Source of the DNA: Candidatus Poseidoniaceae archaeon
GTDB lineage: Archaea; Thermoplasmatota; Poseidoniia; Poseidoniales; Poseidoniaceae
Length of the DNA stretch: 64,000 bases
Direction: 5' to 3'
Assembly: GCA_016777125.1 (NCBI GenBank)
Contig: JADHSC010000002.1
Coordinates: forward strand, 62,001-126,000
Program-made: the position numbers and the translations under genes
Part shown: positions 28,548-62,150 of the stretch, piece after piece
Numbering within the stretch: position 1 is the stretch's first letter
Layout: the number at the start of each line of letters is the position of its first letter
The notes under the pieces: model-generated
Told to the model about the DNA's origin: nothing
The model's database searches: none
What the model saw: the letters and a program-made list of their open reading frames with translations, nothing else

Positions 28548-31500
28548 ATGAGCCTAGTAGGCAATGGTCTTATCAATCACCAACGAGTGAAAAGAATCAT
28601 GGAGTCTCGTAAGAGAGTTATCGGCCCAAGTCTCGCATTCATGCTATTGGCATCTACATTGCTCGTATTCGCATCACCAACACAAGCGGATATCACCGAT
28701 GAAATTTCGATTTTACATACTGCAGTAAATCCTGAAAATAACAAGACGTATCACCTTCTTTCTGCATCTTCTTGGGAAGATGCAGCATTCCGGGCACGAT
28801 CATTAGATGGCTATCTTACCACCGTGGATTCAGATCTTGAAAACGCCTGGATTTTCGATACATTTGCTGGATTCGATAATCAAAGTCGCCATATCTGGAT
28901 TGGATTGAACGATGTTCAAGATGAAGGGATGTACCGTTGGCATGATGGAACACCATTTTTGTACAGAAGTTGGGGAGAAGCCCAACCAACTGGAAGTGAT
29001 GATGCAGATTACGTACATATCGCCTCAACGAACATGGGCAACATTATGCCTGGTACTTGGAATGATTTAGAAAATAATCCAGAGTACTTCCCAGTCTATG
29101 GTGTCGTAGAAGTGGGCCAAGGTGCAGATTTTTCACTCCGATTTAATGGCATAGAGGATCATATTAAGATTTCAAATGATGATGGTCTTCAACCAAATGC
29201 GTCATTGCTTATTGAAGCCACAATTAAACCATCTGATTTGAGTGGGATACGATTCATTACCATGAAGGGTGATTATGGCTGGGGCATGTACCTCTCAGAG
29301 GGATACATCGGCTATTCTTCAGAATACAGTCTCTCGAAACACCCATTATCGAACATGTCGGTTACTGTCGATAACTGGTCAACCATTGAAGTTGAGATCA
29401 TAGAGGGTGTTGGCGGTGAATTCAGAATTGATGGAATACCTGTTGGGAATATTTCTGCTGAAGATGCAAACATACCTGCAGGTGATTTCGGTTCGAATGA
29501 TTGTTTCACTTCCGGAGCATCATGTGACGAACTGTACATAGCTCGTATGGGCGCAGGATGTGATTGCTACCATTTCGAAGGTATCATTGATGATGTAACC
29601 ATCAAGTCAATGGATGATGTAACCTGGGAAATTATGACTCAATGGACGTTCTGGGAAGGCGAAGGCAATGATGTTGGTGATTCCTTAAACGATGAAATGT
29701 TTGAACGGAATGGAGAAATTCATGGAGCAGATTGGGTTATGCCTGATGGCTCTATTATCGCTCAGGCTATTGAATTGATTAATGAAGATTATATCATTAT
29801 CGAAGATGTCAAAGAAGGAGATACACTTCTTTTCTATGTCGATGTTGAGGATTTGACACGATATCTCGATGTATCCTTTTGGGCTTGGTCAGATTACTAT
29901 TGGGAAGAAGATGTAGAAGAGGATCAATTCAATGTGTATGTCGGATACGATGAAATTCCTGCCCCGTGGGACTATGATATGGAATTGACTGGATGGTATG
30001 GTTCAGTATATGGAAGTTTTACTTGGCCAGAACATGATGTCATGTGGTTTGCTCTTGTAGCAAATCAAGACCTAGAAGAACTCGAAGTCAGCACGTACTG
30101 GGATCTTGCAAAGGCTCCACCAAGTCTTGAAGAGATGACAGAATTGTTCAAGGGTGTTCCAATCACACAGCAATCGAATCAAGCAGAGGATTACGAAGCT
30201 GCAATCAATTACTATTTCGTAAACGTCACCGAACCACTTACTGAACTTAAAGTCGAGACATATGGTGGTAAAGGAAATATTCAGTTAGCCATATCGAAGG
30301 GTGGACCGGTTGATCCTGACTATGGATGGGGCTTCGAGTTTGAAGATATTATACCGGGAGAAGGAAGCACTTCATCCACAATGGAAGATTGGTCTATGGG
30401 CCAAGGGAATAATGAGGAAGTCAATTTGTTTGATGTCGAACCTGGAATCTACTATGTGGTCACTTACACGTACCGAAAAGCCGACGATTATACAATTCTT
30501 GCAGATATGAACTATGCTCCTACAAATGCTGACCCAACAACTGCTGTGGAACTCACACCTGGTATTGCTTATGGTCCTATGAGTGGCTATGATGGACTTG
30601 ATCAATACTTCTTCATTGACGTACCAACAGGTACCGAACGACTTGAAGTGGATCTAGATGGAGGATTTGGTGAAGCAAGTCTCCATATGCGTATCGAGAA
30701 TACTCCTACTGCAAGTGAAGCCGACCATCATTCAGGTTCACCAGGGGCAGGTGATAAAATTGCATTCAATAATCCAACTCCTGGAAAATGGTACATCCTT
30801 CTTGATTCAGAAACAGTATTCAGCGGTGTTGAAATTACAGCATCCTTTGCAGACCTCTACATTTGGGAATATGATGGAACTCCAGTTCAACTGTTTAAGG
30901 ATGAGCAAATCGATGGATTGAGTGCCCCTTCTGGAGAAGACTTATTCTTCTACGTTGAAGTTGGAAGAAATACTCAAACTCTGATCATCAATACATTCGG
31001 AGGCTCTGGAGAATTGCTTATTGAAGGAGATGGTGAGACTGACTTTGGATTTGATGACTTTGATTTCTTTGATGAGGACATGATGGATTCTGGAAGACAA
31101 TTCGGTGAAGAAGAGTGGATTTCGTATGGCGAAGGTACATATCAAGAATTGTACATCTACTTCCCTGCTGAGGGTAGGTTTGACATTACCGTTACTTCGA
31201 TGGACGATTTCTCTGAAGTCTCAATTGTTGCAACATGGGATGGGCGAGATGGTGGCCCTGATGGCCCTGATGAACCAGTTGACCCAGAAGAAATCATGCC
31301 TTGTGACGAAGGTTTGAAAGAAATGATGACTGATAATGACATTAACGGCGATGGACTCATTAGTGCATCAGAATTCAAATATTTTGATGACTTTGACGGA
31401 AGAACAATCGAATTTTCTGAAATCAATCAAAACGATGATTCATACCTTGAATTCAATGAAATTGTAGCCTTTGCTTGTTCCTGTGAAAACGAATTGGCCT

Positions 31501-32216
31501 TACTTGACATGCAAATCGATGGACTTCTATCGCTTTCAGATTTTGATGAGATTGAATTCAAGAACGACTATCAGTCTATCAAATTAGATTTCAACCAAGA
31601 TGAATTCATTGATTCATTTGAATTAAGTGAATTCGCCCTCGTTTGTACAACATCCTACAACCCAATGGATACAGATGGGGATGGTGTTCTTGATCCTGAT
31701 GACAAGTTCCCGAACGATCCTGATGAACAATCCGATGCTGATGGAGATGGGGTTGGAGATAATGCGGACTTTGCCCCAAGCGTATCCAACGACATCGTCT
31801 ACAGCGCTGGTGCAGTAATGTTACTCGTTCTCTTTGGTGTACTTGTTCTGATTGTTCGTGGCAGTTCGAAAAGTCCTGAGGATTTACAACAAGAACAATG
31901 GAACAAAACCGATGCATTTGCAGAACGAATGATGGCTATGGATGGAGGAGAAACTATGCTAGAAGCTCCTAATCTTGGACCTGTAAGCGATACGATCGCT
32001 CCAATAACTGACGAACCAGTTCAAGCCTTTGAAGCTCCTGGGGAATTAGAAGGATATGATTTCGGTAACGAATCCTCCTTTACAACTGAATCACAACCAC
32101 CTGCAAGTTTGATGGGTATGATGGATAGTCAAGGCCGTGAGCATATCGAATATCCTGCACAAAGTGGAAAGTATTGGCACAGAACCTCTCCAGACTCGCC
32201 TTGGATGAAGGATTAA
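28548..32216 (+). CDS. Large multidomain surface protein (C-type lectin, LamG-like, PPC-like, EF-hand, membrane anchor)
   Basis: Secreted, membrane-anchored protein of 1222 aa. An N-terminal signal segment (SLAFMLLASTLLVFASPTQA) ends near residue 47. A C-type lectin-like domain spans about 65-195 (HIWIGLNDVQDEGMYRWHDG, TWNDLENNP). A LamG/concanavalin-like domain follows to about 375 (FSLRFNGIEDHIKIS). Several PPC-like beta repeats occupy 540-905 (LDQYFFIDVPTGTERLEVDL; PGKWYILLDSE). Two EF-hand-like loops (DINGDGLISASEF, FNQDEFIDSFEL) and an acidic DTDGDGVLDPDD repeat of thrombospondin-3 type lie at 925-1080. One helix (about 1082-1105) and a 115-residue tail ending in an aromatic YP-SGKYWHR motif complete it. 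Likely adhesion or glycan/particle binding at the cell surface. An archaeosortase gene converges on it. Confidence 0.85.
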   Translation: MSLVGNGLINHQRVKRIMESRKRVIGPSLAFMLLASTLLVFASPTQADITDEISILHTAVNPENNKTYHLLSASSWEDAAFRARSLDGYLTTVDSDLENAWIFDTFAGFDNQSRHIWIGLNDVQDEGMYRWHDGTPFLYRSWGEAQPTGSDDADYVHIASTNMGNIMPGTWNDLENNPEYFPVYGVVEVGQGADFSLRFNGIEDHIKISNDDGLQPNASLLIEATIKPSDLSGIRFITMKGDYGWGMYLSEGYIGYSSEYSLSKHPLSNMSVTVDNWSTIEVEIIEGVGGEFRIDGIPVGNISAEDANIPAGDFGSNDCFTSGASCDELYIARMGAGCDCYHFEGIIDDVTIKSMDDVTWEIMTQWTFWEGEGNDVGDSLNDEMFERNGEIHGADWVMPDGSIIAQAIELINEDYIIIEDVKEGDTLLFYVDVEDLTRYLDVSFWAWSDYYWEEDVEEDQFNVYVGYDEIPAPWDYDMELTGWYGSVYGSFTWPEHDVMWFALVANQDLEELEVSTYWDLAKAPPSLEEMTELFKGVPITQQSNQAEDYEAAINYYFVNVTEPLTELKVETYGGKGNIQLAISKGGPVDPDYGWGFEFEDIIPGEGSTSSTMEDWSMGQGNNEEVNLFDVEPGIYYVVTYTYRKADDYTILADMNYAPTNADPTTAVELTPGIAYGPMSGYDGLDQYFFIDVPTGTERLEVDLDGGFGEASLHMRIENTPTASEADHHSGSPGAGDKIAFNNPTPGKWYILLDSETVFSGVEITASFADLYIWEYDGTPVQLFKDEQIDGLSAPSGEDLFFYVEVGRNTQTLIINTFGGSGELLIEGDGETDFGFDDFDFFDEDMMDSGRQFGEEEWISYGEGTYQELYIYFPAEGRFDITVTSMDDFSEVSIVATWDGRDGGPDGPDEPVDPEEIMPCDEGLKEMMTDNDINGDGLISASEFKYFDDFDGRTIEFSEINQNDDSYLEFNEIVAFACSCENELALLDMQIDGLLSLSDFDEIEFKNDYQSIKLDFNQDEFIDSFELSEFALVCTTSYNPMDTDGDGVLDPDDKFPNDPDEQSDADGDGVGDNADFAPSVSNDIVYSAGAVMLLVLFGVLVLIVRGSSKSPEDLQQEQWNKTDAFAERMMAMDGGETMLEAPNLGPVSDTIAPITDEPVQAFEAPGELEGYDFGNESSFTTESQPPASLMGMMDSQGREHIEYPAQSGKYWHRTSPDSPWMKD

Positions 32217-49750: not shown

Positions 49751-49815
49751 GAACTTTTGCGACTCACTTAAGAACCCCATTCAAGTGGGCGAATTGAACC
49801 AGACAGGTGGACACC

Positions 49816-52023
49816 ATGGGACGAAAAGAAGACAACATCAAAAAGGCTACAGTAGTCATGCACATCCTACCGCAAATTCGCAATCTATGTATTGCTGCGC
49901 ACATTGACCACGGAAAGACAACGCTCTCTGACAACCTCATTGCAGGTGCAGGTATGATGTCAAGCGACCTCGCAGGTGCTGCTCGTGTTCTCGACTTCGA
50001 TGAACAAGAATCTGCACGTGGAATCACCATCAACGCAGCTTCAGCATCTATGGTACACGCTGTTGAAGGAACAGATTATCTCATCAATCTCATTGACACT
50101 CCAGGTCACGTAGACTTTGGTGGAGACGTCACTCGTGCTATGCGTGCTGTTGACGGATGTTTCATCTTGGCTTGTGCTGTTGAAGGCCCAATGCCTCAAA
50201 CCGAAACAGTCGTTCGTCAAGCACTCAAGGAAAAGGTAAAGCCAGTTCTTTTCATTAACAAGGTCGATCGACTCATCAATGAATTGCAAGTAACTCCTGA
50301 AGACATGCTTAAGCGATTTGAAGAGACCATTGCCAAGGTAAACAGACTCATCAAGCAATTCGCTCCTGAAGAATTCAAGAAATCATGGCAAGTCAGTGTC
50401 ATGGACGGAACTGTTGCTTTCGGCAGTGCATACCACAACTGGGGAATTACCATTCCATACATGAAGAAGTCTGGTGTTTCAATGACCCAGATTTTTGAAT
50501 ACTGTAACAATGAAGATCAGAAGACACTTGCTTCAAAGGCTCCTGTTCACGAAGTTCTACTCGATATGGCAGTTACCAAACTTCCAGGTCCAGTTCAAGC
50601 ACAACCATACCGTATTCCAAATATCTGGACAGGAGATTTGGACTCGACTATTGGAAAAGCAATGGTTAGTTGCGACCCTGATGCAGAACTGGCTATGATG
50701 ATTACAAAAATTTGGATGGACCCTCACGCAGGAGAAGTTGCTGTCGGCCGTATTTACTCCGGATCAATTTCACAAGGTGAATCCGTCTACGCAATTGGAG
50801 CATCCAAGCCAGAACGTGTTCAACAAGTCAGCATGATGGTTGGCGGAGACAGAATCACAGTTCCAAAAGTTGTTGCAGGAAACATTGCAGCGCTCACGGG
50901 TATTCGAAGTGCTGCAGCTGGTGTAACACTTTCAAGAGACAAGGATTTCACTCCATTCGAAGCAATCCGTCACTACTCAGACCCTGTTGTCACAGTGGCT
51001 GTTGAACCGAAGAGCATGAAAGATCTACCAAAGTTCATCGATGCTCTACGTTCCCTTGCTAAGTCAGACGCTTCACTAAAGGTTACAACAAACCAAGAAA
51101 CTGGAGAAGCATTGCTGGCAGGAATGGGAGAACTTCACCTTGAGATTACTGTTTACAGAATCGAAGAAGAACAAAATATCAAGGTAAGCGTCAGCCCACC
51201 TATTGTTGTTTACAGAGAAGGTCTGCAAGGAAGCAACCGTGGCCGTGCGTTCGAAGGCAAGTCCCCGAACCGTCACAACCGTTTCTTCTTCGAAGTTGAA
51301 CCGCTAACACCAGAAGTTGTAGAAGCCCTACGCTCTGGAGAATTCAAGGAAGGAACAGTCCGTCCAAATGATGGTAAGGAAGTTGGAAACAAATTCGGTG
51401 CTCTCGGTATGGACAAAGATTTGATGCGTAAGATTTACGCTATCAATGGAACCAATGTTCTGGTTAACGATACCAAGGGTATTCAAGGACTTCACGAAAC
51501 ACGTGAATTGATTATTGAAGCTTTTAATGAAGTCTGTGTTAAGGGACCAATCGCTGATGAACCTGTTCAAGGAATGTTTGTTCGTCTTACTGACGCAAAA
51601 CTTCACGAGGACGCAATTCACAGAGGACCTGCACAAACAATCCCTGCAGTTCGTAATGGACTCAAGGGAGCAATGATGCGAGCTAAGACAATCATCCTCG
51701 AACCTATGCAGAAAGCATTCGTTTCAGTACCAAACGACTGGCTTGGTCAAGTAACTCGTGAAGTTACTAACCGACGTGGAATTATCGAAGACATGCCGAG
51801 TGAAGGCGAAGTTACAACAGTTATCGGTGTACTTCCAATCGCAGAAACATTCGGATTCTCCAACGATATTCGTGCAGCTTCCCAAGGCCGTGCGGTCTGG
51901 AACACAGAGAATCTTGGATTTGAAATGGTCCCACCACAATTATTCGACAAGGTAGTCGCTCAAATTCGAACCCGTAAGGGATTGAAGCCTGAGCCTAACT
52001 CAGAATCTTACTACTCTGATTGA
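49816..52023 (+). CDS. fusA: Translation elongation factor aEF-2
   Basis: GTPase of 735 aa catalysing ribosomal translocation. G domain: CIAAHIDHGKTTLSDNL, LIDTPGHVDFGGDVTRAM and LFINKVDRL. Domain IV has HEDAIHRGPAQ with the diphthamide His at about residue 602. GTG 49807 lies upstream but ATG 49816, with AGGTGG before it, is preferred. The modifying enzyme Dph6 is encoded at 38101-38757. Confidence 0.97.
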   Translation: MGRKEDNIKKATVVMHILPQIRNLCIAAHIDHGKTTLSDNLIAGAGMMSSDLAGAARVLDFDEQESARGITINAASASMVHAVEGTDYLINLIDTPGHVDFGGDVTRAMRAVDGCFILACAVEGPMPQTETVVRQALKEKVKPVLFINKVDRLINELQVTPEDMLKRFEETIAKVNRLIKQFAPEEFKKSWQVSVMDGTVAFGSAYHNWGITIPYMKKSGVSMTQIFEYCNNEDQKTLASKAPVHEVLLDMAVTKLPGPVQAQPYRIPNIWTGDLDSTIGKAMVSCDPDAELAMMITKIWMDPHAGEVAVGRIYSGSISQGESVYAIGASKPERVQQVSMMVGGDRITVPKVVAGNIAALTGIRSAAAGVTLSRDKDFTPFEAIRHYSDPVVTVAVEPKSMKDLPKFIDALRSLAKSDASLKVTTNQETGEALLAGMGELHLEITVYRIEEEQNIKVSVSPPIVVYREGLQGSNRGRAFEGKSPNRHNRFFFEVEPLTPEVVEALRSGEFKEGTVRPNDGKEVGNKFGALGMDKDLMRKIYAINGTNVLVNDTKGIQGLHETRELIIEAFNEVCVKGPIADEPVQGMFVRLTDAKLHEDAIHRGPAQTIPAVRNGLKGAMMRAKTIILEPMQKAFVSVPNDWLGQVTREVTNRRGIIEDMPSEGEVTTVIGVLPIAETFGFSNDIRAASQGRAVWNTENLGFEMVPPQLFDKVVAQIRTRKGLKPEPNSESYYSD

Positions 52024-52025
52024 GC

Positions 52026-52496
52026 ATGTTGACTGGATCCGTCCTCGGCATCTTTGCCACAGAGGAAGGTGGTGTACCAAAACCGTCTGTTGATTCAATA
52101 GACGTACGTCTAAACGGTGTCCATGGAGAACGTATTCGTGATACAAAGCATCACGGAGGTCCTGAACGAGCAGTTTGTATCCTTTCGAATCAAACACTCG
52201 AATTCCTTCAGAAAGATGGTCATCCAATACGTGGCGGTTCAACTGGAGAAAATCTTCTCATCGATGTTGATGAAGACGTATTAGTGACAGGTATTCGATT
52301 GAAGTTTACAGATGTTGAATTAGAGATTACATCTCCTGCTCCTCCATGTAAAACAATTAAAGAATCATTTACAAACGGAGATTTCAAACAATTATCCCAC
52401 AAACTGAATCCTCAAAGGACTCGTTGGTATGCGAAAGTCATCCATGAAGGAATTATACGTGTAGATGAAATTGTTGAAATCAACTCAAACGCTTGA
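52026..52496 (+). CDS. MOSC-domain protein
   Basis: Protein of about 156 aa. MOSC domains of molybdenum cofactor sulfurases bind a metal-sulfur group via a conserved Cys, here in ITSPAPPCKTI. Other family elements: GVHGERIRDTKHHGGPERAVCI, written across the loop, and RGGSTGENLLIDV. It begins at TTG 52020 or ATG 52026 immediately after fusA. Its end overlaps the convergent prenyl gene by 17 bp. Role: metal-cofactor handling or sulfur transfer; substrate unknown. Confidence 0.85.
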   Translation: MLTGSVLGIFATEEGGVPKPSVDSIDVRLNGVHGERIRDTKHHGGPERAVCILSNQTLEFLQKDGHPIRGGSTGENLLIDVDEDVLVTGIRLKFTDVELEITSPAPPCKTIKESFTNGDFKQLSHKLNPQRTRWYAKVIHEGIIRVDEIVEINSNA

Positions 52497-54234
52497 GTTG
52501 AAGATCGGTTAATTCACGAAGAGCGAGCATTGCTGGACCATCTGGCAAACGATCAAGACATGCATGAGCATTCTTGTGATAGTGGTTGGCTTTTTCACGT
52601 GCATATTCAATTGAACCTAATTGATTCAGAGACTCCACACCTTGTTGAATCATTTCAGCAGAGGCTTCTTCACCCATCCCCAATACGTTAAGTAAGTTAT
52701 TTTTCACTTCACTTTCTGGTTGATTTAAAGCATGGATGACCATCAGAGTTTGCTTGCCTTGAGCAACATCAGATCCAGTAGGCTTACCCAATGTTTTGGA
52801 ATCTGAAAGAACATCAATTAAATCATCCATAAGTTGGAAACATAGGCCAACAGAAAGGCCCCACTCAGACATACAATCGATAACATCTTGATCAGATCCA
52901 GCAACTTGTGCTCCCAATTCAGCACAAATTTGGAACATGACTGCTGTTTTACCCTCAATCATCTCCAAGTATTCATCTTCTGTTACTCTTTCACGAGTTT
53001 CAAATTCAATGTCAAGTTGTTGGCCTTCAGAAACACGACGAACCATCCAAGCAATTCGATTTACTAACGATGGTATGTCTTGCAGTTCTATGTTTGCAGA
53101 CATTACAAGACGTTCGAATGCAATGGCTAACATTGCATCTCCTGCATTGATAGCAGTTGGAATATCATATTCAACGTGAACAGCATTCCTGCCTCGTCGA
53201 ATTTCATCATCATCCATAATATCATCATGAACGAGGGTGAAATTATGAATCGTTTCAATTGCAGCACCGATATCGAGCAAACCGGAATGCGTGTCTCCAA
53301 CGGCTCTTCCTACAAGCCATGGAAGTGTTGCACGCATTCTCTTGCCACCACCCTCAATCAGGTGAAGCATGGCTGCAGCAAGACGTGCATGACGTGATGC
53401 TTGCAGACTTTCGACAATACGGCGCTCAATGAATGGTCGTACTTCTTTCAAACTCGTGGACAAATCTGCGCCAATAGCGCCAGGCAACATATGAGTTACA
53501 TCACCCATATCATGAATCAAATCATCACGTAGAGATGCACATGCATCCTCGTCTCCAATAGCTTTCCACCAATCTTCGGTCATAACTCTTGCAGCAATAC
53601 AGCGGAACCATGGTGCGATGATATCATCTGAATCTTCTGTTACAAGCATTTGTTCAAGTTCTTGCTCGTCAACCCAACGAACTTCTGCGACCTCATTTGG
53701 ATTAGGATGCACTTCAACATCGGCTTGAATCATAAGTATGTGATCGATTTCACGCTCAATCCATTCAGCATTCATACGAGCACTATACTTCATTTTGGTT
53801 ATGAAATGGAAGTTTTCTAGAGGAACAGACTTAGGATCAATACCTAATTCTTGCTCGAGTTTACGAACTGCTGCTATTTTCACGCCCATGGCATTCTCTT
53901 CGTTCATCTCTTCTGCACTGGCGAGTGGATGAGAACAACAGGAATTCGCCCATACACTTGGAAATGTGATTTTGTCATGCGCTCGTTGCTGTAAGAGCAG
54001 TCTGTTGTCCTTATCGAACAAAAGAATACTGAAGGCACGATGTAATGAACCCGGTCCGTAGTGACTATCTGCTTTACTTATAGGACCGACGACACTATCA
54101 TTTTCATCAACTTGTAAAACGGCTTCCGCCATCATGGTTGCTTGGGTTTCATCAACAGTGGATGATGCCATTAAACCAGCAGCCTGCTCATCAATAGCAG
54201 CTTCTGGAACATCTCCTGATGCATAGTTCGACAT
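52480..54234 (-). CDS. Fusion of type I IPP isomerase and polyprenyl (GGPP-type) synthase
   Basis: Single open frame of 584 aa. The N-terminal 30-230 region is a type I (Nudix-fold) isopentenyl-diphosphate isomerase: LHRAFSILLFDKDNRLLLQQR across the start, catalytic Cys in ANSCCSHP near 96, and catalytic Glu in EREIDHIL near 163. The C-terminal region from about 255 is an all-helical prenyltransferase: EGGGKRMRATLPWLV, first aspartate-rich motif LVHDDIMDDDEIRRGR near 336 and second LMDDLIDVLSD near 469. Domain fusion would channel IPP/DMAPP directly to chain elongation. Archaea mostly use type II isomerase, so a type I domain is notable. Chain length (GGPP or longer) is inferred. Lies downstream of IPK on the same strand. 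Confidence 0.92.
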   Translation of the reverse strand: MSNYASGDVPEAAIDEQAAGLMASSTVDETQATMMAEAVLQVDENDSVVGPISKADSHYGPGSLHRAFSILLFDKDNRLLLQQRAHDKITFPSVWANSCCSHPLASAEEMNEENAMGVKIAAVRKLEQELGIDPKSVPLENFHFITKMKYSARMNAEWIEREIDHILMIQADVEVHPNPNEVAEVRWVDEQELEQMLVTEDSDDIIAPWFRCIAARVMTEDWWKAIGDEDACASLRDDLIHDMGDVTHMLPGAIGADLSTSLKEVRPFIERRIVESLQASRHARLAAAMLHLIEGGGKRMRATLPWLVGRAVGDTHSGLLDIGAAIETIHNFTLVHDDIMDDDEIRRGRNAVHVEYDIPTAINAGDAMLAIAFERLVMSANIELQDIPSLVNRIAWMVRRVSEGQQLDIEFETRERVTEDEYLEMIEGKTAVMFQICAELGAQVAGSDQDVIDCMSEWGLSVGLCFQLMDDLIDVLSDSKTLGKPTGSDVAQGKQTLMVIHALNQPESEVKNNLLNVLGMGEEASAEMIQQGVESLNQLGSIEYAREKANHYHKNAHACLDRLPDGPAMLALRELTDLQLKRLS

Positions 54235-54302
54235 ATGAGCCCCATCCTGTCTTCCAGCACCCGATACATAGACAGTTCGCCTCTGTTCGGAGAGATGGAT
54301 GA

Positions 54303-54545
54303 CTACTTCCTGCGAATTGACCAGTTCTTACGACCGAGACCTTCCAAGGCCACTCCAGTAAGAATTCCCCATAGAATGGGATACTCAAGTTCAAAATAGA
54401 ACAAAGGGATCATGGCTACAAATGCAATTATCCAATGATGAACCCAGACGAAATTGTTGCGGATGTGGAATTTAATGTTTTCAGTAAGCCAACGAATTAC
54501 CGCAAATCCAAGAATAATTCCAATTGAATAGATTGCAAACTCCAT
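54303..54545 (-). CDS. Small three-helix membrane protein
   Basis: Protein of 80 aa with hydrophobic stretches near 3-18, 35-52 and 57-70 and a basic end (LGRKNWSIRRK). It lies between isopentenyl phosphate kinase (nine bases upstream) and the IDI-prenyl synthase fusion. It may only be an operon passenger. No family recognised. Confidence 0.5.
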   Translation of the reverse strand: MEFAIYSIGIILGFAVIRWLTENIKFHIRNNFVWVHHWIIAFVAMIPLFYFELEYPILWGILTGVALEGLGRKNWSIRRK

Positions 54546-54554
54546 CGTATCACC

Positions 54555-55370
54555 TTATCCTAAAATCGTCGTCCCTTTCCATGGCTGATTACGAACCAAA
54601 TTAAGAATACGCTCAGGATATTCACCATTGATCAAATGAACACTTATTCCGTTTTTGGCAACTAAATGGCCTCGTTGAATTTTCAAACCAATACCACCGG
54701 TAACATCGATATCGGTTTGGTGGAGTCCTTCATAGGACACATCCGGCGACCAGTGTTCAATCAAATCGTCATCCGTAGCGAGGTGTGGAGGGACTTTGAG
54801 CAGACCATCGACTCCGCCCATAGCAAAGACGAGGGATTCTACATCAGGTAATTCCATTGAAAGCCTTGCAACGAGATCATCGCCTGAGAGAATACCGAAT
54901 TTAATTTCACCATCAACATCGACAACGTCTCCAAATGTGACATGGACAGTTCCAACATCATCTGATTTGAAGCGAATAAGATCTCCATCAAATTGGGGCC
55001 CCAAATTCGATGCCCATTGATGGGGTGGATGAGATAAAGCATTGAGATCGACTCGTTGTAATTCTGAAAGAACAATGGCATTAAGCGTTAACATATCTTT
55101 TCGAACATCCTCAACTGCTTCTTGTTGTGATGAGCAAGTGTCATCGACGAGCTCAAAGTCTGGGAGATGACCTTCGTTTAATCTCCAGCGTTTTGCTTTT
55201 AGATGGCCAAACGAACCTGCTCCATGGACAATAATGACCTGAATACCTTCCTCAGTGATTTCTTTAATGGTCGAGCAAAGGTTTCTGATGATCTGTAGAT
55301 GAGCCACGGACTGTTCGTCTTTCTTGGTGATGAGAGCACCACCAAATTTGACCACAATTCGCCTCCCCAT
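54555..55370 (-). CDS. ipk: Isopentenyl phosphate kinase
   Basis: Amino-acid-kinase-fold enzyme of about 271 aa converting isopentenyl phosphate to IPP in the archaeal mevalonate route. It starts MGRRIVVKFGGALIT, has VIIVHGAGSFGHLKAKRW with the family His near 58, and FGILSGDDLVARLS and DVTGGIGLKIQRG. ATG 55394 is possible; ATG 55370 gives the family start. It heads an operon with the small membrane protein and the IDI-prenyl synthase fusion. Confidence 0.92.
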   Translation of the reverse strand: MGRRIVVKFGGALITKKDEQSVAHLQIIRNLCSTIKEITEEGIQVIIVHGAGSFGHLKAKRWRLNEGHLPDFELVDDTCSSQQEAVEDVRKDMLTLNAIVLSELQRVDLNALSHPPHQWASNLGPQFDGDLIRFKSDDVGTVHVTFGDVVDVDGEIKFGILSGDDLVARLSMELPDVESLVFAMGGVDGLLKVPPHLATDDDLIEHWSPDVSYEGLHQTDIDVTGGIGLKIQRGHLVAKNGISVHLINGEYPERILNLVRNQPWKGTTILG

Positions 55371-55449
55371 GAATATTGCAGGCATCAATACCACATGAGG
55401 ATGCCTACAAAAACACAGGATTCAATAGGCTGCTCTCGTTGAGTCGGCC

Positions 55450-56565: not shown

Positions 56566-57735
56566 ATGGTCGATGTTGCAATGGTCGGTGCTGGTCAAAC
56601 AAAATTTGGCAACCATCCATTAGGCCTCAAAGGCATGTGGTCAGAGGCTATCGAGAAGGCTTTTTCCAGTGTTGATAACGATTGCTTGCCGAGTATGGTG
56701 GATGAGGCGTTCATCGGTAGTATTGCTTTTGGTGGATCACAATTAGGCAATACAGCAGCTCTCTTAACCGAACATTCTGGCATGGACGGTGTAAGTGTAC
56801 GACGGGTCGAAAATGCATGTGCATCGTCTGGTTTCGCCCTTCGAGATGCATGGATGACAATCAAAAGCGGACAGGCAGATATCGTCGTTGCCGGTGGAAT
56901 TGAAAAAATGAATGATTTATCAGCCGAAAGGAAGCGATACTGGCTTGGAGTTTCTGGCGACACGGAATGGGAACGTTTGGCAGGACTTACATTCCCTGGC
57001 ACTTATGCGTTAACTGCTCGACGTTACTTTCACGAGTTTGAATCAACACATGATGACCTTGTCCATGTATCTGTGAAGAACCACATGCATGGCTTTGACA
57101 ATGAAGTCGCTCATTTACGCAAAGATGTCTCGTTTGAGAAAGCAAGTTCTGGAGCGATGGTTGCCGATCCGCTCACTCTTTACGACTGTTGCCCAACATC
57201 AGACGGTGCTTCCGCAGTTATTCTCGTAGCAGACCATCTCGCTCATCAGTTTACTGATACGCCAATTTGGGTCAAAGGGTCTGGAGCAGGTTCAGATAAA
57301 TTAGCCCTGCATGACAGGCCGAGTTTAACACAACTACGAGCAACTCAATTGGCATCTCAAAAAGCATACTCAATCGCCAATATTCAGCCGAACCAAATCG
57401 ACTTGGCTGAAGTCCATGACTGTTTCACAATTGCAGAAGTTCTCGCCACAGAAGACCTTGGATTTGCAGGACGTGGGGAGGGAGGACGCTTTGCACGTGA
57501 TGGTCAAGGTCGGCGAAATGAAGGTGATGTTACAATTAATGCAAGTGGAGGACTGAAATCAAAAGGCCACCCACTTGGTGCAACAGGAACTGGACAAGCG
57601 GTCGAAGTCTTCAAACAATTACGACATCAAGTAGAATCACCACGACAAGTACGTGATGCTGAAGTTGGCTTGACACATAATGTAGGAGGCTCAGGAGCAA
57701 CCTGTGCCGTTCATATCTTTGGGAGGGAGAGATAA
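56566..57735 (+). CDS. Thiolase (acetoacetyl-CoA thiolase / SCP2-type)
   Basis: Archaeal thiolase-like protein, 389 aa. Catalytic Cys in RVENACASSGFAL, His in EVHDCFTIAE and the GHPLGATGTGQAVE loop. The C-terminal active-site loop reads NVGGSGATCAVHIFGR, as in the archaeal form that lacks the second Cys of biosynthetic thiolases. In archaea this enzyme works with HMG-CoA synthase and a DUF35 protein to begin the mevalonate route. The DUF35-like gene starts on the last base of its stop. Confidence 0.88.
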   Translation: MVDVAMVGAGQTKFGNHPLGLKGMWSEAIEKAFSSVDNDCLPSMVDEAFIGSIAFGGSQLGNTAALLTEHSGMDGVSVRRVENACASSGFALRDAWMTIKSGQADIVVAGGIEKMNDLSAERKRYWLGVSGDTEWERLAGLTFPGTYALTARRYFHEFESTHDDLVHVSVKNHMHGFDNEVAHLRKDVSFEKASSGAMVADPLTLYDCCPTSDGASAVILVADHLAHQFTDTPIWVKGSGAGSDKLALHDRPSLTQLRATQLASQKAYSIANIQPNQIDLAEVHDCFTIAEVLATEDLGFAGRGEGGRFARDGQGRRNEGDVTINASGGLKSKGHPLGATGTGQAVEVFKQLRHQVESPRQVRDAEVGLTHNVGGSGATCAVHIFGRER

Positions 57736-58535
57736 TGCCTATCTCAAAATCTTCTGTTGAGAACGTAATCTTTGCAACCAGTGCCTATGGTGATCGATGG
57801 GCAGGTCCTGATGGAGATCGACTCACAATCGCTTTGCAACTCCTACAGTCAGAGACTGCATCGACGATTCAAATCGATTCCTTTGTAGAATCACTTGAGT
57901 ATACGCCGAGTACTGCGGTCTCTTCAATTATCGAATCGACAACCGATTGGAAAGTAGACTCGGATGGACAATATCATTTGATTGCATCCAATTCATCATT
58001 CATTGTAGCCCTTACAAAAGATGAACATATTTCACAATGGCCAGACTTATCTCTTGGGAAAATGATTGATGAAGATCATAAAAATTCAATCCATGGGGCA
58101 TGGAAAAAAGAAGTCGCTGGCGTAAGTCAAGGTGCCTACGTATCCCAATCCCAGCATAGGCTTGCCATGCCATCACGCCTTGGTTTACATGCTCAAGAAG
58201 ACGCTTCTACCATCGTCTGGCCGCCTCGACAACTCAATGCAGAAGGAGAACGAATCGCTCCAGCATCAAACAAACTGGACAATCGTGCATCCATCCTAAC
58301 TTGGACAAGACTAAGTGCAGCGGGAGCCCCTTCCGAATTCTCATTGAGAGCTCCATTACTCGGTGGAGTATCCACGGTTCTTGTTGAATTTTCATCAGGG
58401 CCAAAAGGAGTATTCATGCTTGCAGATGATGAAGATGGACAGGCATCGATAGGCCAAGAAGTCTCATTTGAGGTACGACGCTTGTATGGTCAAGATGAAC
58501 TGATCCACTACGGACTCAAAGCACTTCTGATTTAA
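57735..58535 (+). CDS. DUF35-like OB-fold protein, partner of thiolase, with extra N-terminal region
   Basis: Protein of 266 aa. The last 120 residues match the DUF35 layout: IVWPPRQLNAEGERI in the place of the zinc ribbon, then ILTWTRLSAAGAPSEFSL and STVLVEFSSGPKGVFML with the ending VRRLYGQDELIHYGLK. The ribbon Cys residues are absent, so the zinc is probably lost. Typical DUF35 is about 130 aa; here some 130 N-terminal residues (FATSAYGDRWAGPDGDRL) are unassigned and may be a worn thiolase-fold remnant, though that is uncertain. It overlaps the thiolase stop by one base, suggesting a complex. HMG-CoA synthase is not next to it. Confidence 0.6.
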   Translation: MPISKSSVENVIFATSAYGDRWAGPDGDRLTIALQLLQSETASTIQIDSFVESLEYTPSTAVSSIIESTTDWKVDSDGQYHLIASNSSFIVALTKDEHISQWPDLSLGKMIDEDHKNSIHGAWKKEVAGVSQGAYVSQSQHRLAMPSRLGLHAQEDASTIVWPPRQLNAEGERIAPASNKLDNRASILTWTRLSAAGAPSEFSLRAPLLGGVSTVLVEFSSGPKGVFMLADDEDGQASIGQEVSFEVRRLYGQDELIHYGLKALLI

Positions 58536-58587: not shown

Positions 58588-59604
58588 ATGGCTGGCTTTG
58601 GTGGCATCCGTAAAGGTCGAAATGAAGCGATTGAGAACATCTCTGTACAAGACGAAGGTGATTGTGCACGTTGTGGTGGGGAAAGCCAACCATCTACAAT
58701 GGATGGATACCTCACCTGTAGTCGTTGTTCTTACGAATGGAAAGATCCAAACTATGTTTCTAAAAAGACAAGAGGACCACCACCAAATCATCGTAGAGAT
58801 AACGAATTGATTCAAGAATTCAAGAATGAAATGGAACGAGGAGACCTCAAAGGCATTCTCGGAGTCGATTCCAACCTCTCAGAAGCACAAGAAAAGTCTC
58901 TGCAACGATTGGAAGATAAGTGGATGACTGGAATGCAAGGGCACTACAACGCTGCTTCTGAAGATAGAAAACCACTTATGATCAGTTTTGATGATGATGA
59001 CAACATTGTTTCCACTGAAGTGGCAGCATTAACCATCGTATCAAACGGATTTGATGGCGGTGAAGAAATACGACTCGAATATCCAGGTAGAGGAACTGAA
59101 TTTTATGCATACAACGAGAAAAGTTCTACAGGTTGGAGGCGAGGAGATTCCAGCGAATCGACAGCTCGCTCGATTTGTAACGTTATTAATCGCTCATCTG
59201 AACTTGTTTATGCAAACTTGAATGGAAATCGAATCTCCTTTGAATTACGTGGTGATGACTTGAAACCAGAATCCTTAGTCTTGTTTGTCGATGACCCTGG
59301 TGGCCAAGATATCGTGGCTGAGAAGGGTGGAGTCATCCTCGATTTCAGAGACGTGACTGTATGGGATGATTATCGCAACGTTGTCGCTCTTGTTTTGGAA
59401 GATGGAATCATCTCGCCAAGTGAAGATCAGATGCTTTGGGTTATGCGCCAACAACTTGGAATCGAAGAAGAACAACATGTTGCTCTTGTTTTGGAAATGT
59501 TTGGAGATAACGCATTGAAAGAATGTCCCAATTGCAATAACATGGGACAACTGTACCCTGAGTACTCAGCATGGTACTGCCAGGCTTGCGAAAGTTGGCT
59601 TTGA
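58588..59604 (+). CDS. Protein with zinc ribbons at both ends, unknown function
   Basis: Protein of 338 aa. Residues 26-50 hold CARCGGESQPSTMDGYLTC and SRCSYEW; the last 25 hold CPNCNNMGQLY and WYCQACESWL. Between them is a basic linker (KKTRGPPPNHRRDNE), a helical segment, then a beta-rich region ending in a helical acid-rich part (SPSEDQMLWVMRQQLGIEEE). The latter resembles the tellurite-resistance TerB-like helices by eye, weakly. It precedes the MamK-like actin gene by 108 bp. No function is assigned. Confidence 0.55.
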   Translation: MAGFGGIRKGRNEAIENISVQDEGDCARCGGESQPSTMDGYLTCSRCSYEWKDPNYVSKKTRGPPPNHRRDNELIQEFKNEMERGDLKGILGVDSNLSEAQEKSLQRLEDKWMTGMQGHYNAASEDRKPLMISFDDDDNIVSTEVAALTIVSNGFDGGEEIRLEYPGRGTEFYAYNEKSSTGWRRGDSSESTARSICNVINRSSELVYANLNGNRISFELRGDDLKPESLVLFVDDPGGQDIVAEKGGVILDFRDVTVWDDYRNVVALVLEDGIISPSEDQMLWVMRQQLGIEEEQHVALVLEMFGDNALKECPNCNNMGQLYPEYSAWYCQACESWL

Positions 59605-59712: not shown

Positions 59713-60738
59713 ATGGCTGAAGACGTATTGTATATTGGAATTGACTTGGGGACTTTCCGCTCCGTAATGGTTTCATCAGGAAATCACGAAGAAGAAGAAC
59801 TCACTGTAATTGGAACACCAAAAGATCCAATTGCTCGAAACTTTTTGAAGAGAGATGTTCTCTTTGGAGAAGAAGCACTCAAGAACAGATTGGCTCTCAA
59901 TCTATTCAGACCTCTTGAACTTGGTGTCATCAAAGATACAAAAGAAGATAGAGAATTCATTGCTCACTTCATTACCCACCTTATTGGGCTATCCGATCCT
60001 GAAGACCACGACCGTGTTGTCGCAGTTATTGGAGCACCAGCTGAAGCAAGCCACGTTGACAAGACCGCAATCTTCGATGCTGCTGCAGGATCAGTTAACG
60101 CTGCTATGATTATTTCAGAGCCGTTCGCTGTTGCATATGCTCTTGACATGATTGAGCACACACTCGTTATCGACATCGGAGCAGGAACAACTGACCTTTG
60201 CCGTGTTTACGGAACTATTCCAGGACCTGGTGACCAAATGCACACTGGATATGCTGGAGACTACGTTGACGCTCAAATCATCAAGGAAGTTCAATCCAAG
60301 TACAATGGGGCTCAAATCACCAAGGATATGGCTCGCCGATGGAAGGAACAATACTCCTTTGTTTCCACATCCACTCCTGATGGCCCGATTATGGTAGATT
60401 TCTCTATTGAAGGAAAGGCAATGAATCTGGACATCACTGATTGCATGCAACGTGCTTGTGAATCAATCGTTGAACCAATCGTTGAGAACGTCAAGAAACT
60501 TATCGCTACCTCCAACCCGGAATACCACAACGAGTTCCGCCGAAATATGGTTCTCGCTGGTGGCGGATCAGGAATTCGTGGACTCGGTGCTCTCATCGAA
60601 CGCCGACTCTCCGACATGGGCGATGTCAACGTACACGTTGTCGATGACCCAGTCAGACTCGGTGCAATGGGTGGCCTCAGACTCGCTATGGAAGTTCCAG
60701 AAGAGATGTGGAAGAACCTCACACTGGCTTCAACATGA
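59713..60738 (+). CDS. Actin-family filament protein, MamK-like
   Basis: Actin/Hsp70-fold ATPase of 341 aa. Phosphate-1 motif YIGIDLGTFRSVMVSS at the N terminus, catalytic Glu in IISEPFAVAYALD near 136, phosphate-2 LVIDIGAGTTDLCRVYG near 150 and adenosine motif VLAGGGSGIRGLGALIE near 280. The string GTIPGPGDQ, the KEQYSFV segment, VIGAPAEAS and the ending GGLRLAMEVPEEMWKN match, in order, the magnetosome filament protein MamK as I recall it, rather than MreB (IDIGGGTT, MGGDKFD) or crenactin. The length is near MamK's 347. Membrane-linked partner gene follows 11 bp downstream. Function likely organises a cellular structure; no other magnetosome gene is here. Confidence 0.85.
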   Translation: MAEDVLYIGIDLGTFRSVMVSSGNHEEEELTVIGTPKDPIARNFLKRDVLFGEEALKNRLALNLFRPLELGVIKDTKEDREFIAHFITHLIGLSDPEDHDRVVAVIGAPAEASHVDKTAIFDAAAGSVNAAMIISEPFAVAYALDMIEHTLVIDIGAGTTDLCRVYGTIPGPGDQMHTGYAGDYVDAQIIKEVQSKYNGAQITKDMARRWKEQYSFVSTSTPDGPIMVDFSIEGKAMNLDITDCMQRACESIVEPIVENVKKLIATSNPEYHNEFRRNMVLAGGGSGIRGLGALIERRLSDMGDVNVHVVDDPVRLGAMGGLRLAMEVPEEMWKNLTLAST

Positions 60739-61430: not shown

Positions 61431-62150
61431 ATGTGGACTAAAGAGACCAAAGTGGTCATATTGACAGGTGCTGGTATCAGTGCAGAATCAGGTATTCGAA
61501 CCTTCAGAGCATCAGATGGATTATGGGAAGACCATAGAATCGAAGATGTAGCTACACCAATGGGTTGGGAAAGAAATCCTCAACTTGTGTGGGATTTTTA
61601 TCAAGCAAGACGGAATCAGTTGTTTGAAGTTGAACCTAATCCGGGTCATCTAGCTCTTACAACACTTGAAGAATATCTCGATGAGATGCTTTTGGTTACT
61701 CAAAATGTAGACAACCTTCATGAACGTGCTGGTTCCAAAAACCTCATTCACATCCATGGTGAACTTGAAAAATTACGCTGTGAAGAATGTGATTATGTTG
61801 GAATCATGATGGATGACCACGACCTCACATCATCATTCGTATCTTGCCCAGAATGCTCGAATGCAGTCATGCGCCCTCATATTGTTTGGTTTCATGAAAT
61901 GCCTATGCGAATGTCAGAAATTGAAAGAGCGTTGAATCAATGTGATGTATTCATCGCCATCGGAACAAGTGGTCACGTGTACCCTGCTTCTGGTTTTCTT
62001 GCATCTGCAAAACAGCAGGGCTCATATTGTATAGGCATCAACCTTGATGCACCATTAAATTACGATCTCTTTGATGAATTCCACCAAGGTAAAGCGGGTG
62101 AAATTCTGCCTGAACTTGTTCATCAATGGATTAATACCGAGCAAGCATAG
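61431..62150 (+). CDS. cobB: NAD-dependent protein deacylase (sirtuin, class III)
   Basis: Sir2 enzyme of 239 aa. NAD site GAGISAESGIRTFRASDG, VTQNVDNLHERAGS and catalytic His in IHGELEKLRC. Zinc site CEEC...CPEC. The substrate loop carries WDFYQARRN, with the Tyr and Arg (Y-x-x-R) found in SIRT5/CobB-like sirtuins that prefer succinyl or malonyl lysine. C-terminal IGTSGHVYPASGF is conserved. It starts six bases after the membrane protein gene, possibly same transcript. Confidence 0.92.
   Translation: MWTKETKVVILTGAGISAESGIRTFRASDGLWEDHRIEDVATPMGWERNPQLVWDFYQARRNQLFEVEPNPGHLALTTLEEYLDEMLLVTQNVDNLHERAGSKNLIHIHGELEKLRCEECDYVGIMMDDHDLTSSFVSCPECSNAVMRPHIVWFHEMPMRMSEIERALNQCDVFIAIGTSGHVYPASGFLASAKQQGSYCIGINLDAPLNYDLFDEFHQGKAGEILPELVHQWINTEQA

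Follow-up and report, generated by a model that had tools for sequence, protein, structure and literature searches.

The window analyzed here, a stretch of 64,000 nucleotides from a member of the Poseidoniales (marine group II; MGII), carries an intact open reading frame that runs from an ATG to a stop codon and encodes an actin-like ATPase, designated K1. Its neighbors, together with a second actin paralogue (K2) from the same genome, are as follows.

49807-52023: aEF-2, about 8 kb upstream of K1
56566-57735 (+): thiolase-family protein (PRK06064-type), context only
57735-58535 (+): possible OB-fold (ChsH2-C-like) thiolase companion, from a weak Pfam match (E 0.077), context only
58588-59604 (+): soluble zinc-ribbon protein, 338 amino acids, candidate partner of K1, with zinc ribbons at its N- and C-termini, the latter preceded by a helical segment (about 260-305)
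59713-60738 (+): K1, MamK-family actin-like ATPase, 341 amino acids, recognized by NCBIfam, PDB match, AlphaFold2 model and catalytic residues
60750-61424 (+): membrane protein, 224 amino acids, without a Pfam family
Elsewhere in the same genome (G000:C9, locus L051:7957-8961): K2, about 45% identical to K1

The actin fold that the initial annotation had read from the letters of K1 is borne out by an AlphaFold2 model (pLDDT 94, pTM 0.90) that drew on K1 and 27 related sequences; its best match among PDB structures is the MamK filament subunit 5ljv (TM 0.91, rmsd 1.6, 38% identity), followed by BeeR 8r2n and then MreB. Sequence matches in the PDB are ranked alike (MamK 5ljw, E 4.7e-75; BeeR, 5.3e-42; MreB, about 2e-14), and eukaryotic actins are far weaker matches by both sequence and structure. 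The motifs singled out at first sight are likewise real: VIGAPAEAS occupies residues 105-113, GTIPGPGDQ 167-175 and KEQYSFV 211-217, the C-terminal ending is GGLRLAMEVPEEMWKN, and in an alignment of 107 relatives the motif columns are common to magnetotactic and non-magnetic MamK-family proteins and absent from 10 of 10 MreBs. Residues E136 and D154, invariant in all K1 and K2 sequences aligned, correspond to E143 and D161 of MamK, mutation of which abolishes ATPase activity and filament dynamics (PMC5059902). Among NCBIfam models, K1 scores highest against MamK (361.6 bits), then BeeR (214), MreB (93.9) and salactin (62.8), falling under the curated cut-off of every model matched; the corresponding Pfam scores are 94 bits for MreB_Mbl and 34.6 bits for PF00022. 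K1 is an actin-fold ATPase of the MamK family in the wide sense, and not an MreB.

The zinc-ribbon gene lies immediately upstream of K1 in every K1 neighborhood read, and its cysteines are invariant in 11 sequences; in a set of 390 genomes from the phylum, every full-length homologue comes from a member of the order that also bears an actin (a single-sequence structure model, at pLDDT 37, is too poor to use). Two genomes with K2 only (G146, G166) are devoid of the zinc-ribbon protein, and one genome (G127) carries it with no K1 found, perhaps owing to a contig edge. In several genera of the window's family, f1, the thiolase lies near the zinc-ribbon protein and K1, with the ChsH2-C-like gene between the thiolase and zinc-ribbon genes; other genera have a different gene (20-23% identical) in place of the thiolase. 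The 224-residue membrane protein downstream, initially proposed as a membrane adaptor, is not conserved, the K1 loci of the other genera read being devoid of any homologue, and was set aside in favor of the conserved upstream partner. In the single-contig genome G074, K1 occupies two adjacent frames (C1:1175438-1176456, as 1175438-1175998 and 1176001-1176456), reflecting either a real frameshift, a pseudogene or an assembly error.

An ancient pair of actins and the K2 locus

The search for orthologues in marine group II genomes that had been suggested for K1 shows that the protein is far from confined to one contig. When a MamK-model match at E <= 1e-20 is taken as positive, the actin is present in 198 of the 319 genomes that represent the order. 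By family, these are 167 of 171 genomes in f1 and, from just four genera (g5, g7, g9 and g20), 31 of 148 in the sister f2. Elsewhere in a 390-genome sample of the phylum only G385 and, weakly, G514 match, which makes the pair all but exclusive to this order at the phylum level; the match in G385 (5 Mb, 7% contamination, over the cut-off) may be a contaminant.

The single-gene view taken at the outset overlooked K2, which scores 333.9 bits against the NCBIfam MamK model (under its cut-off of 400) and is unlinked to K1 in the genome. Two copies are usual in actin-bearing genomes, with a single copy in 2 of the 23 positives that are >=90% complete and <=5% contaminated. The K1 and K2 clades each have a support of 100, and their union 99-100; since each paralogue clade holds members of both families, the duplication predates the separation of f1 and f2.

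The order of genes around K2 is the same in both families: a divergent rpL18A, an S8 subtilase, K2, a predicted coiled coil and a convergent GGGPS. The subtilase, which may be a mere neighbor, has a C-terminal hydrophobic segment and is predicted to be membrane-anchored and extracellular. The coiled-coil protein, of 385-426 amino acids, displays a heptad-like periodicity far above that of shuffled sequences, and its most conserved block spans residues 241-300 (about 90% across 7 long versions). Both this protein in its full-length form and the zinc-ribbon protein are confined within f2 to the four actin genera. In 138 f2 genomes, actins and the zinc-ribbon protein occur together in 28, actin only in 3 and the zinc-ribbon protein only in 1, and the respective counts for the full-length coiled coil are 22, 9 and 1; these counts, drawn from incomplete and mutually related genomes, are descriptive only, and the Fisher values computed on them overstate the association. 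The partners' recovery among f2 actin-positives (28/31 and 22/31) is about as expected of incomplete genomes.

In three genera devoid of the actins (g3, g6 and g21), the same locus reads L18A, a short coiled coil (about 155-175 amino acids) and GGGPS, with neither subtilase nor K2 (the contig of one such locus, L234, stops short of GGGPS). The short protein matches only residues ~20-160 of the long form and is missing the conserved 241-300 block; the simplest reading is a joint loss of the actin and of the coiled-coil portion that worked with it. A gain is also possible, because the EF-2 species tree, in which the g20 row is in the wrong frame, is weakly resolved and does not fix the direction of change. 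Within the actin-bearing genus g5, two genomes (G027 and G269; 91% and 84% complete) have neither actin, nor the coiled coil, nor the full-length zinc-ribbon protein and have kept archaellin, possibly through a recent separate loss.

Position within the MamK family

A scan of approximately 85,000 species genomes recovered MamK-family proteins from magnetotactic bacteria, from many non-magnetic bacteria and from Candidatus Methanoperedens, where magnetotactic and non-magnetic are labels assigned from record titles, tree position and, for three genomes, a magnetochrome control. The existence of MamK-like proteins in non-magnetic bacteria, anticipated by the initial annotation, is upheld, the same motifs being present; with the Methanoperedens protein, the MGII actins are not the only archaeal members. 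Trees of MamK-family proteins and MreB, of the kind proposed as a check, place K1 outside MreB, which is split off from MamK and the MamK-like proteins, K1 and K2 included, with a support of 100 in both a larger quick tree and a careful tree. Magnetotactic MamKs form a clade of their own that holds no MGII protein (support 100 in the larger tree and 93/100 in the careful one). The archaeal members (K1, K2 and Methanoperedens) constitute one branch in the careful tree (97/93), a grouping not recovered as a resolved branch in the larger tree. Given that an AU test does not reject a joint clade of MGII and magnetotactic MamK (p 0.25), the position of MGII outside the magnetotactic clade is supported while its sister group is unsettled.

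Identification of K1 as MamK-like therefore stands by score, structure and tree but does not extend to the magnetosome clade or to the NCBIfam family NF040964, whose 400-bit cut-off is reached by no genome of the order. The mean identity of K1 to non-magnetic MamK-like proteins is 41.7%, versus 37.6% to magnetotactic MamK, and the magnetochrome domain (PF18509), present in three of three magnetotactic controls, turned up in none of the order's genomes that were tested, in keeping with the initial remark that no other mam gene lies in the window. K1 is not a magnetosome MamK. With the latter (NF040964; PDB 5ljv, 5ljw and 5jyg) it shares fold, length, catalytic residues and motifs at 33-40% identity, and its modeled fold matches the subunit of the ATP-dependent double-helical filaments characteristic of MamK; the MGII proteins differ in their separate clade, sub-threshold scores, lack of a detected magnetochrome and archaeal host, as well as in having two ancient unlinked paralogues and other partners. 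Two studies describe magnetotactic MamK as also working with coiled-coil partners and sometimes with a second actin, Mad28 (PMC12748827; PMC12713370).

Closer in sequence are the single-domain actins of non-magnetic Nitrospirota, Desulfobulbaceae, Acidobacteriota, Planctomycetota and giant sulfur bacteria (about 42% identity, same motifs), although many of their genes follow one for a membrane-anchored Amidase_3 protein, and no such gene occurs at the K1 or K2 locus. Likewise, the Methanoperedens protein (L145, L151 and L155) is archaeal and belongs to the sister branch of K1/K2 in the careful tree, but its neighbor is a FlaD/E-like protein, and one copy (L145) passes the MamK cut-off at 403.5 bits. 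BeeR from Verrucomicrobiota (PDB 8r2n; PMC11929497) is a MamK-related actin of non-magnetic cells and the second-closest fold; K1 attains 214 of the 530 bits needed and is without the disordered N-terminal extension of 30-50 residues found in BeeR, the first strand of its model beginning at residue 5. Salactin, a haloarchaeal actin placed nearest MamK by its authors (PMC10746226), is matched at 62.8 of 400 bits, the MGII proteins scoring far higher to MamK, and K1 likewise reaches only 93.9 of the 293 bits needed for MreB.

In 29 non-magnetic bacterial loci, a gene for a membrane-anchored, Amidase_3-type (N-acetylmuramoyl-L-alanine amidase) protein lies immediately upstream of the MamK-like gene (most of L117-L138, L141, L142, L144, L146, L147, L159, L162, L164 and L167); these proteins have a membrane segment and mostly an N-terminal ILRGVY-like motif, the Amidase_3 domain was present in both of the two examined with Pfam, and no paper on the gene pair was found in the open-access literature. 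In Methanoperedens-type archaea, a gene for a FlaD/E (Arch_fla_DE) protein comes immediately after that for the actin (L145:472-2115, L151:7953-9560 and L155:5258-6883), with matches of E 5e-17 in Candidatus Methanoperedens and 1e-16 in archaeon LFW-280. No homologues of the zinc-ribbon or coiled-coil partners were found near bacterial or Methanoperedens MamK-like genes. The amidase and FlaD/E neighbors suggest that MamK-family actins partner with envelope-attached machines of various kinds; this comparison supports an envelope theme for K1 and K2 and is no proof of it.

A putative envelope-positioning scaffold

The reading given slight preference, as being somewhat more probable than its negation, is that K1 and K2 constitute an ATP-driven cytoplasmic scaffold which, with its co-encoded partners and without any magnetosome, holds or positions an envelope-attached complex. 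Under this proposal, the two actins, products of a single duplication before the f1/f2 separation, would represent an archaeal branch of the MamK family, form filaments in an ATP-dependent manner and cooperate in one scaffold. The coiled coil would probably bundle or tether K2 filaments, acting as an adaptor through its C-terminal half, and the soluble zinc-ribbon protein would probably regulate or nucleate K1. The cargo would be an envelope-attached complex, for which the membrane-anchored extracellular subtilase is a candidate, and the positioning role would be akin to that of MamK with magnetosomes. The family, fold, catalytic residues, duplication, conserved gene order and joint inheritance or absence of the parts are observed directly, and polymerization, binding of partners, cooperation of K1 with K2 and the nature of the cargo are inferred from them. 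A more elaborate version, offered tentatively and with its chances put well short of even, envisages a two-actin (hetero- or co-assembled) cytoskeleton of marine group II for MamK-type positioning of organelles or envelope structures, in which a zinc-ribbon regulator serves K1, a coiled-coil adaptor couples K2 filaments to the membrane-anchored extracellular protease, and the filament-binding half of the coiled coil disappeared along with the actins.

The alternative that survives best, although unlikely, is an actin governing cell shape or size in the manner of MreB or haloarchaeal salactin and lost upon genome streamlining, which differs from the scaffold reading mainly in cargo. Genera devoid of the actins do have smaller genomes (about 1.4-1.75 Mb versus 1.7-2.4 Mb, estimated as bases divided by completeness), and the amidase upstream of the 29 bacterial genes points to envelope work; nevertheless, K1 is far from both MreB and salactin by score, and no shape genes are linked to the actins. 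Distinctly less probable is a polar organizer that anchors or places the archaellum or a chemosensory array. This option draws on the FlaD/E protein in Candidatus Methanoperedens and archaeon LFW-280 and on a mild enrichment of archaellin in actin-bearing f2 genomes (18/31 versus 32/107 in those without actins), but it is at odds with 13 actin-bearing f2 genomes that have no archaellin, 32 archaellin-bearing ones that have no actin, the retention of archaellin in G027 and G269 and the absence of archaellum genes beside K1 or K2. Acquisition of a magnetosome MamK by gene transfer, the host being a magnetotactic archaeon, would account for the family resemblance and the quoted motifs and is given next to no credence, as K1 and K2 fall outside the magnetotactic clade, the magnetochrome control separates the two groups and the actin is near-universal across f1. 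Contamination or misassembly, conceivable in draft genomes and perhaps real for G385, is extremely improbable as a general explanation in view of the 198 positive genomes, the conserved archaeal neighbors (aEF-2, rpL18A, FtsY and GGGPS) and the presence of both K1 and K2 loci in single-contig G074.

The pointer to an undescribed filament system made in the initial annotation, with filaments themselves presumed, agrees with the literature covered: no title or abstract in the open-access literature searched reports the MGII actin pair. MamK-family actins also occur in non-magnetic bacteria, and the system is a variant within a known superfamily; new here are the association of K1 with a zinc-ribbon protein, the placement of K2 between a subtilase and a coiled coil, and the stub of that coiled coil in actin-less loci.

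Marine group II is among the most abundant groups of planktonic archaea, and to our knowledge little is known of its cell biology. If the scaffold reading is correct, a conserved MamK-family pair with co-inherited partners would provide a testable internal skeleton for these cells and would suggest that the MamK family is a wider organizer, with magnetosomes, amidase, FlaD/E proteins and subtilase as cargoes, and not an invention of the magnetosome. Genera with and without the actins offer natural presence/absence pairs for a cargo hunt.

Several smaller observations concern the surroundings of the two genes. Both actin loci lie among archaeal lipid-precursor genes, possibly by coincidence: a NUDIX-polyprenyl synthetase fusion, an isopentenyl-phosphate-kinase-like protein and the thiolase near K1 (window 52480-55394 and 56566-57735), and GGGPS beside K2 (L051:10311-11108). 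A sirtuin (Sir2) is encoded downstream of K1 (window 61431-62150), with a homologue near K2 in the f2 genus g9 (L055:4177-4890; L059:12741-13364). Lastly, the window encodes at 28548-32216 a protein of 1222 amino acids with C-type lectin and PPC domains, a possible large surface protein.
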